Shown here piece after piece: positions 51,820 through 54,821 of a DNA stretch of 64,000 bases (the stretch's first letter is position 1; each line of letters begins with the position of its first letter). The position numbers and the translations under genes were made by a program. The stretch covers positions 434,001 to 498,000 of the forward strand of contig NZ_JAERLY010000002.1 in NCBI RefSeq assembly GCF_018256155.1, in the 5' to 3' direction. The stretch comes from Gluconobacter sp. Dm-62 (GTDB taxonomy: Bacteria > Pseudomonadota > Alphaproteobacteria > Acetobacterales > Acetobacteraceae). The notes under the pieces were generated by a model that saw only the letters and a list, made by a program, of their open reading frames with translations, searched no databases and was not told the origin of the DNA.

Positions 51820-51985
51820 AGACCTGAAAACCTTACGCACGAAAGACGAACGCCATATAGCGAATGTGTCGTTATATTCGGCTTGGAAGATCGGAAATAG
51901 GGAGAATTTTTCCTGTAGAATCCGAAAACGCGAAGCGTCTCAACACTTCAGTATGAGTTAAAAAACGCAGGCATCTGGAATGATA

Positions 51986-52297
51986 TGGTGTCCGCGAGAG
52001 GATTCGAACCTCCGGCCCCAGGATTCTTACCACTTCGGTTTTCACCGCCATGCACTGAAGCATGTTTGTGGTCTGGACTGTCTCTTCACCACAGCTACGA
52101 AAACGAAGCCAAGGTGTCGCCCGTACAGTCTCTACACCTTCGTTCCAGCGCACCGAAACGCTTGGCTCGGGATTGGCACGATCGAGATGATCAGAGCGTT
52201 CCCCGAATTTGAGCGAATCCACCATGCGGTTTCCCATCATGGCGCCCAATTCGAAACCTTAGGAATCCTGTGCTCTATCCTGCTGAGCTACGCGGAC
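51986..52297 (-). tRNA. tRNA-Arg (CCT), interrupted by a group I intron
   Basis: Two exons form a normal tRNA: acceptor GTCCGCG (52297-52291) pairs with CGCGGAC (51996-51990), discriminator A, encoded CCA at 51988-51986, a D arm with GCTC/GAGC, and a T arm with GGTTCGAATCC. The anticodon stem CAGGA is at the end of exon 1 and TCCTG at the start of exon 2; the loop reads TTCCTAA with anticodon CCT. The 235-base intron sits after base 36. A run of six T residues lies just after the 3' end. Agrobacterium tRNA-Arg(CCU) is known to carry an intron at this site. Confidence 0.95.
52026..52260 (-). ncRNA. Group I self-splicing intron in tRNA-Arg (CCT)
   Basis: The 235-base intron follows the two splice rules: exon 1 ends in T (52261) and the intron ends in G (52026). 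An internal guide GGGAA (52235-52231) pairs with the exon end TTCCT, giving P1 with the required U-G pair at the splice site. P4 pairs TTCGGGG with TCCCGAG; P7 pairs GACTGT (52130-52125) with ACAGTC (52081-52076). The motifs CAATCCCGAGCCAAGCG and AGAGACTGTACGGG match the bacterial tRNA-intron core (IC3-like). It contains no endonuclease ORF. Confidence 0.93.
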
Positions 52298-52712
52298 ACA
52301 CAGCCAAACCGTACTCTGGTTGAAGTGTCTCTGCAACCGTGCCTGTCTTGATGCCTGTGCAAAGCTGAAAATTTACCACGCAGAACGGATATCCGAAGGA
52401 CTGTGATTGGCAGGTGACGTTTATGCTATTTAAACTTTTTCTGCTTATTCTTTCGGGTGCGGCCTTTGCTGTGGCCTTGCGCAGCCCCTTTTTTCCATCA
52501 AAAAGGTGGTCTGTATTTTTGGTAGTACCAAATCCTGAGTAGGGTAGATCGCATTCGCGTCTGGCATCCTACACAATGCTCCTTGAATGGGGTTTTGCAG
52601 GTTTGACTGGGTTGAGAATTGCCATGATCTGCATTGTTTGTGACGACATACTGAAACGGCGTGAGGCTTTCGTCCTTTCTGGTGCGGGGCGCTGACCGTG
52701 GAGGTGAAGATA
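52298..52712 (+). other. Region between tRNA-Arg and the SARP-like regulator
   Basis: 415 bases with one possible short ORF (52423-52542) and no recognised RNA. The promoters of the tRNA gene (minus strand) and the regulator (plus strand) should lie here. A GGTAGTACCA palindrome-like motif is at 52521-52530. Confidence 0.4.
52423..52542 (+). CDS. Possible 39-residue exported peptide
   Basis: ATG preceded by CAGGTGA. The translation starts LFKLFLLILSGAAFAVALR, which looks like a signal peptide or single membrane segment, and ends in a short polar tail. No family is recognised; it may be chance. Confidence 0.3.
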   Translation: MLFKLFLLILSGAAFAVALRSPFFPSKRWSVFLVVPNPE

Positions 52713-54821
52713 GTGGACAGTGTCAGTCATCATGTCCGCGAGACAGACCCCACGCTCCTGCGCCTGAAGCTGTTCGGGCAGATGGAAGCAAAAACCCTTA
52801 CGGGTGAAAGCGTTCTGCCGGTGGGGAGCAAGACGCGGGCTCTGCTGGCTATCCTCGCTCTTTCAGACCGGAAGCCTGTCCTGCGATCCCGTCTCGCCGA
52901 ATTGCTGTGGAGCAAGCGGCCAGAGGATCTGGCGCGCGCTTCCCTTCGGCAGGAAATCCATCGCCTTCTTGATGCGCTGAGCCCGATAGGTGTGGAGGTC
53001 ATCGATGTGCAGCGGCACTCACTGGCCCTGAAGTCAGCGCTGACATCTGTGGATGCCGAAAAGTTGCTGACAGTCAGTGTCCGCACAATTGACGCTGTGG
53101 CATTTCCGGAGGAACCGTTGCTTGGAGAGTTGGCAGGGGTGGATCCAGCTCTGGACGACTGGCTTGTTCAGCAGAGAAGACGCCTGTCAGCCCATCTTCA
53201 GAATGTTTGTGAAAGTGCCGTCCAGGAGCTGACTGACTCAGATCGGGTCGAGGCTACGGCTGAGCGTCTGCTGAAATTTGACGGACTGAACGAGATTGCC
53301 TGGCGTGCCAGAATTCAGTTGGCCCTCCATCGAGGAGACTATGGCCGCGCAGTGTCGCTCTCCGATCAGATGGCGCGTGTTGTTGAGGATGTTGAGGGGC
53401 ACGTTCTGTCGCCTGCGACACAAAAGCTGCTCGCAAGCATCCCTGATGAGCATACCGCCGGTGAGCCAGTGCAAGACGCCGTCCAGCCGGCGCTGTCGGG
53501 GAGCAACTCTGAGGTTACATCACTGGTTTCTGTAAGACGCCCAGATCCAATGTTGGCTCTGCCGCTCCATTATGCTGCGCAACACTCGTCATCAATGGAG
53601 CCCCAGAAAATTGCACTGGTTTTTCTGGCGCCATCTTGTACTGATGAGACCCTTTTAGGGTATCGACAAAGTCTGCGCGATCAGCTGGAGCTCATGTTTG
53701 TTAACATGGGAACCTTCGATATTCTTTCAATTGCGGATATATCATCTCCTGACTCCGTCAATGCTCCGTCGATTTATCAGAGCCTGGGCGCGGACTACGT
53801 CATTTCGGGAAGTTTGCGGGCCGGGCAGGAGGACGGGGCCGATAACCGTCTTATCCTTCGTGTTCTGGATGCCCGGCGTGGAGGGGTCATAATTTGGGGA
53901 ACGCATTTCGATTTCCCTTCGTCAGGCCCTGATGAAGCTACAAATAGCATTGTGGCGCCGATGCAGGCGATGCAGTGGAGTATCTTCGTCGCAGAAGCAC
54001 GCCGGATCGCTGCAAGGTCGGATGCTGAGCTTTCAGCGCTTGGAATGGCCCTGAGAGCCTTCATGCTACTTTTGCGGCATGACTGTACGCTTTTTGACAG
54101 GATTGGATTTCTGCTGGAGCGCGCTGTTGATCTTGGAAAAGACGATGGGGCGATTGCGCTTATTGATGCGCTATATTGCTATATTCGTTTTTTAAATGAA
54201 TGGGGAATTCAAGCGGAATCTGTCTTCGCTCGTGGACTGAAGAGCGTTCGTGTTGCTGTTTCGCTGATGCCTGATCTGCATGCTGTTGAAGTTCTTTTGG
54301 CGGCGTATCTGATGTACGAGCCCGGTAGCCATGAAGCCGCTGTATCAGTGGCTCGGTCTGCTGCAGAGGATATCTCGAGTAACGATAGCCATCACAAAAA
54401 TTCTCCAGACCTTCGGATGGTAGAGATTGTCCTGAATCTTCTTTGCGGAGAGATGAAGTCGGCTGCGGGCAATGTGAAGAAGCTGTTAGAGAATGGATAT
54501 CGTTCTCAGCTTCTGGAGCTTCTGCGTCCAGTTTTCATGATGATCCTTTTATTGGGTGAAGACTATCAGAAAGTAATTTCAATGGGAAGGCTGGCCTCTG
54601 GACTTTATCCGTCCTGCCCCAGTTCTTTGGTTTATTACCTTGTTTCGTTGATTGAAGTGAATGATTTTCCAGAAGAGGCGCAGCAGGTCCGCCGTCATCT
54701 GCTTCGTCTGGCGCCAGATCTGACAGTTTCCAAGGTTGTCAGCCGGTTTCCTTTTGTTGAAACAGCTCAACGAACGAGGCTGACTGAAGCGCTGTTCAAG
54801 GCGGGGATTGCCGGAGAATAA
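52713..54821 (+). CDS. SARP/BTAD-type transcriptional regulator
   Basis: A 702-residue regulator. The N-terminus (LLRLKLFGQMEAKTL to ALLAILALS and LAELLWSKRPEDLARASLRQ) is an OmpR-like winged helix of the SARP kind, followed by a helical bacterial transcriptional activation (BTAD) region up to about residue 255. Residues 290-410 (LGADYVISGSLRAG and later IIWGTHFDFP) resemble a TolB/adenylate-cyclase-associated domain, and the C-terminal half looks like TPR helices. The GTG at 52713 is chosen because GGAGG lies eight bases before it. Targets and signal are unknown. Confidence 0.75.
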   Translation: MDSVSHHVRETDPTLLRLKLFGQMEAKTLTGESVLPVGSKTRALLAILALSDRKPVLRSRLAELLWSKRPEDLARASLRQEIHRLLDALSPIGVEVIDVQRHSLALKSALTSVDAEKLLTVSVRTIDAVAFPEEPLLGELAGVDPALDDWLVQQRRRLSAHLQNVCESAVQELTDSDRVEATAERLLKFDGLNEIAWRARIQLALHRGDYGRAVSLSDQMARVVEDVEGHVLSPATQKLLASIPDEHTAGEPVQDAVQPALSGSNSEVTSLVSVRRPDPMLALPLHYAAQHSSSMEPQKIALVFLAPSCTDETLLGYRQSLRDQLELMFVNMGTFDILSIADISSPDSVNAPSIYQSLGADYVISGSLRAGQEDGADNRLILRVLDARRGGVIIWGTHFDFPSSGPDEATNSIVAPMQAMQWSIFVAEARRIAARSDAELSALGMALRAFMLLLRHDCTLFDRIGFLLERAVDLGKDDGAIALIDALYCYIRFLNEWGIQAESVFARGLKSVRVAVSLMPDLHAVEVLLAAYLMYEPGSHEAAVSVARSAAEDISSNDSHHKNSPDLRMVEIVLNLLCGEMKSAAGNVKKLLENGYRSQLLELLRPVFMMILLLGEDYQKVISMGRLASGLYPSCPSSLVYYLVSLIEVNDFPEEAQQVRRHLLRLAPDLTVSKVVSRFPFVETAQRTRLTEALFKAGIAGE

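Follow-up and report, generated by a model that had tools for sequence, protein, structure and literature searches.

The only tRNA-Arg(CCU) gene that we found in the draft genome of a Gluconobacter strain is almost certainly interrupted by a group I intron, which would splice to leave a tRNA reading AGG. We found no endonuclease in the intron, and it appears to have been inherited with its host within the family. The gene lies in the window, i.e., the whole stretch of 64,000 nucleotides that was analysed. Its anatomy, its fold across relatives, its copy number and its distribution are given below, along with a second intron in one other Gluconobacter genome.

Anatomy, detection and copy number of the split gene

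Once 235 nt are removed, the two exons on the minus strand form a 77-nt tRNA-Arg(cct) cloverleaf, with U preceding the 5' splice site and G as the last base of the intron (Table 1). An earlier sequence-only reading of this DNA had joined the same two minus-strand halves into a full cloverleaf, and its coordinates, strand, anticodon, intron length and both splice-site bases were all correct. It had also named the group I class, the host tRNA and insertion after base 36, which are upheld by a match to the Rfam model RF00028, by the ARAGORN call and by the fold.

Table 1. Features of the split tRNA-Arg(CCU) gene and its intron, and the second intron in another Gluconobacter genome. Positions are those of the window unless a locus is named.
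Feature	Position	Strand	Remarks
5' exon of tRNA-Arg(CCU), 37 nt	52261..52297	minus	anticodon CCU at its end; GTCCGCG...CAGGATTCCT
Group I intron, 235 nt	52026..52260	minus	final base G (omega G, 52026); RF00028 match, tRNA call, aligned fold
3' exon of tRNA-Arg(CCU), 40 nt	51986..52025	minus	CCA encoded; AATCCTGG...ACACCA
Internal guide UUGGG	52245..52249	minus	P1 with CCU/AA (52263-52259), U.G at the splice site; invariant in 46/46
P2 hairpin	52220..52244	minus	GAAA cap 52233-52230; includes GGGAA 52235-52231
P3 5' strand	52211..52216	minus	pairs with 52122-52117; both-side change in 3/6 pairs; 100% paired
P4 5' strand	52202..52206	minus	pairs with 52171-52167; 5/5 pairs invariant, hence without covariation evidence
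P7 5' strand (G-binding helix)	52126..52130	minus	pairs with 52080-52076; 100% paired; both-side change in 1/5 pairs, in a single sequence
P8 hairpin	52088..52115	minus	all cells paired in the outer 3 pairs, 73% in the inner 3
P9 with P9.1 and P9.2 (GAAA loop)	52030..52071	minus	alignment and fold score
Group I intron, 212 nt, in tRNA-Lys(UUU)	L222:10050-10337 (G010:C19)	minus	second intron of one Gluconobacter

The sequence-only reading had suggested a tRNA scan with introns allowed. When set to accept introns of 150-300 nt, ARAGORN called one gene in the window, the split tRNA-Arg(CCU), and in 20 simulated versions of the window (first-order Markov) it called no tRNA with an intron. Run with default settings, ARAGORN missed the gene, as did Rfam at its gathering thresholds, and tRNA-His alone was listed. 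Standard annotation of this kind can overlook the gene and leave such a genome apparently without tRNA-Arg(CCU).

The covariance-model search, also suggested beforehand, matched RF00028 to 52263-52059 at 40.9 bits (E 4.3e-9, 501 bases searched). This is below the curated gathering score of 50, which serves to filter searches and does not define the class biologically, and in the draft genome the window intron is the sole match at E<=10 (E 6.9e-9). In the same search, eight of the 14 control genomes had at least one match at E<=10, and two had one above the cut-off. Since weak scores occur in control genomes, the score alone proves little, and our argument therefore rests on the fold. Four other such introns scored 56.0 (G033, which passes), 44.8 (G031), 34.2 (G010) and 31.3 bits (G035), the last three below the cut-off.

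Two ORFs of at least 80 aa overlap the intron, at 51980-52351 on the plus strand and 51875-52249 on the minus strand. Neither has a Pfam match at E<=0.001, and we reject an intron-borne protein; the sequence-only reading had described the intron as ORF-less. The plus-strand ORF (123 aa, beginning MIWCPREDSNLRPQDS) is antisense to the split tRNA and looks like one of the spurious reading frames that annotation often places across from a tRNA gene.

The draft genome (3.46 Mb in 52 contigs) contains 49 tRNA matches, 47 of which were typed by ARAGORN, none as CCU. The two untyped matches are the 3' part of the split gene and a degenerate fragment. A search of the draft genome for another intact tRNA-Arg(CCU), which the sequence-only reading had named as part of a possible refutation, came back empty, and the intact-CCU pattern was absent from all 14 genus genomes of the sample, this one among them. 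tRNA-Ile(GAU) is not among the typed genes of this 52-contig draft, and the assembly may therefore lack some repeats. The degenerate fragment (L083, G000:C50:6999-7070) is a tRNA 3' half that scores 29.2 bits, has no recognisable 5' half and is passed over by ARAGORN; it is perhaps an integration scar.

Fold, internal guide and splicing

We drew a P1-P9 structure on the window sequence and then scored it on an alignment of 46 tRNA-Arg(CCU) introns: 25 from genus loci, 20 from the family or named acetic acid bacteria and one from another family. These rows were chosen by hand from 59 extracted tRNA-Arg introns. Those left out (L089, L092, L093, L094, L097, L123, L146, L157, L166, L170, L171, L194 and L226) are mostly close kin of kept rows, and L194 is the longest intron.

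Across the 46 rows, 96.8% of 2890 cells are paired, compared with 30-42% when the structure is slid, a share that favours the structure because it was drawn on one of the aligned sequences. The covariation counts are stronger evidence. Both sides have changed in 35 of the 63 pairs, and 360 cells are changed on both sides compared with 107.7 in shuffles, counts which related sequences inflate; none of 500 shuffles reached the observed value on any of five measures. Both-side changes are present in P2, P3, P5, inner P6, P9, P9.1 and P9.2. Every cell is paired in P3, P4, outer P6, P7 and outer P8, which bears out the P4 and P7 pairings that the sequence-only reading had drawn. The outer two P6 pairs are invariant and P1 changes on one side at most; with P4 and P7 also invariant or nearly so, little or no covariation comes from these four helices.

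By its fold score, the window intron has a group I core with the P3/P7 pseudoknot (P3-P4-P6-P7-P8). A single-sequence minimum-energy fold (z -2.93) was set aside, the pseudoknot being beyond its reach. The terminal intron G is invariant (46/46), the P9 loop is GAAA in every row and P2 carries GGAAAC in 43 of the 46. Subgroup IC3 is defined by GAAA-type loops on P2 and P9 that dock in P8 and P5. It is the likeliest placing for the window intron, which is a candidate member.

The true internal guide is UUGGG. The surrounding AUUGGGC (52250-52244) is identical in 46/46 introns, the splice-site pair is UG in every one of them, and U36 and the AAU of the 3' exon are just as invariant. Within this sequence, AUU (52250-52248) is able to pair with the AAU of the 3' exon, forming P10. 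The sequence-only reading had instead chosen GGGAA, which belongs to P2. When UUCCU is paired with GGGAA, 91.3% of cells pair across the 46 rows, with no both-side changes and no effect of shuffling. Opposite U36, GGGAA places G in 22 introns and A in seven, and in the other 17 the splice-site U has no standard partner; the first G is swapped for A, C or U in 24. GGGAA fails at this position since it lies in the capped end of P2, GGAAAC.

When examined by eye, the guide also tracks the exon in 10 of 12 introns from tRNAs other than tRNA-Arg; in L106 and L109 the exon boundary is ambiguous. The exon and guide read CUU and GAG in L028, L107, L108, L110 and L223, CAU and GUG in L167, and CUUU and GGAG (a second wobble pair included) in L219-L222.

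Splicing, which we infer from the sequence, would begin with folding of the pre-tRNA, the guide UUGGG holding the CCU end of the 5' exon by a U.G pair. Guanosine from outside would bind in P7 and cut after U36. The 5' exon so released would then attack after the terminal G (52026), which P10 and the anticodon stem would keep in place, and the joined exons would give a tRNA that reads AGG.

Neighbours, descent and rival explanations

The start of acs (51840) is separated from the tRNA by 145 nt, so the sequence-only reading was right to place it beside the split gene in the window. As a conserved partner we reject it, since it is the neighbour in 5 of the 25 genus loci examined. We compared 47 loci, L002-L027 plus 21 more, with the window acs by tblastn (E<=1e-10), and the only matches were in L002, L003, L004, L007 and L014, every one from the genus; L002-L027 carry about 1.5 kb of flank, and an acs farther away would escape. 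A regulator-like ORF (52698-54821), with no Pfam match and a weak NCBIfam match to AfsR, adjoins the gene in 20 of the 25 genus loci and in seven named loci (five Asaia, one Swaminathania and one Tanticharoenia). A crude scan of the minus strand over 51840-52700 found no sigma-70 promoter, a result that is uninformative for such an organism.

In the genus sample (Gluconobacter with Neokomagataea), an intron occupies the same site of tRNA-Arg(CCU) in 25/25 loci, and the intron core is present in 26/26 genomes. Across 397 family genomes, the core pattern was found in 169 (55 of 102 genera) and the intact tRNA-Arg(CCU) pattern in 175: 143 genomes have the core only, 149 the intact gene only, 26 both and 79 neither, and as both patterns are strict, the last class may conceal variants. 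The core pattern is also blind to the host tRNA, and 30 fetched loci comprised 25 tRNA-Arg(CCU) genes and five others.

On a tree of 83 hand-chosen intron loci, rows group largely by host genus, with several long branches. Supported groups are Bombella (with one Acetobacteraceae), Asaia with Swaminathania, and Commensalibacter, while the 25 Gluconobacter rows form one clade with modest support (78/87). The tree appears to fit descent of the intron with its host inside the family. A single origin of the tRNA-Arg introns is unsupported, as the host label needs three changes, two of which are forced by starred branches. Among the tRNA-Arg rows lie L167, the tRNA-Ile intron of Polynucleobacter, and a clade (100/100) of four tRNA-Lys introns, L219-L222. 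Because L167 and others sit on long branches, we draw no conclusion on the origin of tRNA-Arg introns. Paquin et al. 1999 reportedly argued for horizontal transmission among alpha-purple bacteria.

Related introns also lie in Leu-type and other tRNAs at five family loci (L106-L110). Separately, 343 bp with a split tRNA in a record titled Thermoflexus hugenholtzii MAG (L164:3571-3913) is 99.4% identical to Polynucleobacter rarus (L168), and these two loci share nothing further. This stretch could be contamination by another Polynucleobacter or a transfer.

Three other explanations of the window intron were weighed. If it had decayed and no longer spliced, tRNA-Arg(CCU) would be dead and AGG would be read by tRNA-Arg(UCU). 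The latter is present in the draft genome, so AGG might indeed be read without the split gene, and few arginine codons are AGG (10 of 183 in four ORFs of the window); the RF00028 score under the curated cut-off points the same way. However, the 46 introns share an invariant guide, splice-site U and terminal G, most of the core changes little or not at all, and other helices covary. Such conservation is hardly to be expected of a dead gene, and we judge decay to be very improbable.

Removal by protein enzymes, in the archaeal style, would suit an insertion in the anticodon loop, but the size of the intron, its match to RF00028 and the covariation in its core are traits of a ribozyme, and we give this explanation next to no credence. 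The bulge-helix-bulge motif and its endonuclease are archaeal features. The intron might also be recently mobile and a new insertion in the window strain, since similar introns occur in several different tRNAs of the family. Against this, the site is occupied throughout the 25 genus loci, and the regulator-like ORF adjoins the gene in most of them and in the seven named loci, leaving a recent insertion scarcely credible. We thus retain a spliced intron inherited with its host.

A second intron in tRNA-Lys(UUU)

One Gluconobacter genome, G010, carries both the tRNA-Arg intron and an intron in tRNA-Lys(UUU). The uninterrupted tRNA-Lys(UUU) pattern is present in 25 of the 26 genus genomes, G010 being the exception, and pattern searches found no other tRNA-Lys(UUU) in G010. 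Downstream of this locus, the flank matches the window genome at 85.8% over 1409 bp, and the 1.5 kb upstream has no significant match, so orthology rests on the gene and one flank. Related tRNA-Lys introns occur in G118, G334 and G406 (L219, L220 and L221), from two other genera of the family, and the clade they form with that of G010 branches on the tRNA-Arg side. Another tRNA-Lys intron, that of G035 (L223, from another family), lies elsewhere in the tree, on a long branch.

Compared with the intact gene of the window genome, the tRNA-Lys exons differ at 0 of 76 positions in G010 and at 4, 5 and 7 in G118, G334 and G406. The tRNA-Lys introns of G010 and these three genomes are 85.6-92.8% identical, and the tRNA-Arg introns of the same genome pairs are 76.2-77.8% identical. 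Taken together, the exon and intron identities favour transfer of the intron alone, because the G010 exons equal those of the intronless window-genome gene, unlike the donor-like ones. We therefore lean towards a recent (in evolutionary terms) gain by G010 of the tRNA-Lys(UUU) intron from another genus of the family, in which the intron moved alone and endonuclease-free. Alternatively, the pattern may stem from conversion over a short tract, or from loss of the intron in the remaining 25 genomes.

In a literature search that subscription papers lay largely outside, we met no account of acetic acid bacteria with a group I intron in tRNA-Lys. One paper (PMC5733544) claims that tRNA-Lys, tRNA-Gly and tRNA-Arg of cyanobacteria contain group I introns 22-49 nt long, which seem too short for a group I core. 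With a resident intron in 26 genus genomes and an apparently precise second gain in G010, the spread of endonuclease-free introns becomes testable.

Comparison with known introns

The tRNA-Ile(CAU) introns have a different host tRNA and the same core as the window intron, with GUG fitting CAU (by eye) as GGG fits CCU. We take Polynucleobacter L167, at 206 nt, as an example of these Azoarcus-type introns.

Closer in host gene are the introns of Agrobacterium and Bartonella (BbgpI), which PMC7717549, where it describes them, places in tRNA-Arg(CCU) with insertion after CCU, as in the window. They come from other bacterial families, and splicing of the Bartonella homologue has been assayed (by that account it self-splices in vitro and is spliced in vivo), whereas the window intron is known from its sequence.

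Closest of all is Gluconobacter oxydans 621H, for which a 2015 genome paper (PMC4596401) has an entry recording a tRNA (Arg) split by a group I intron homologue, there and in four other acetic acid bacteria. It shares its genus and the split tRNA-Arg with the window strain; it is a different strain, and the entry itself gives neither anatomy nor anticodon. The sequence-only reading had thought the intron worth recording in this lineage, a novelty that lapses in view of that entry and of the core in every genus genome sampled. A split tRNA-Arg in Gluconobacter is already in print and is an ordinary feature of its genus.
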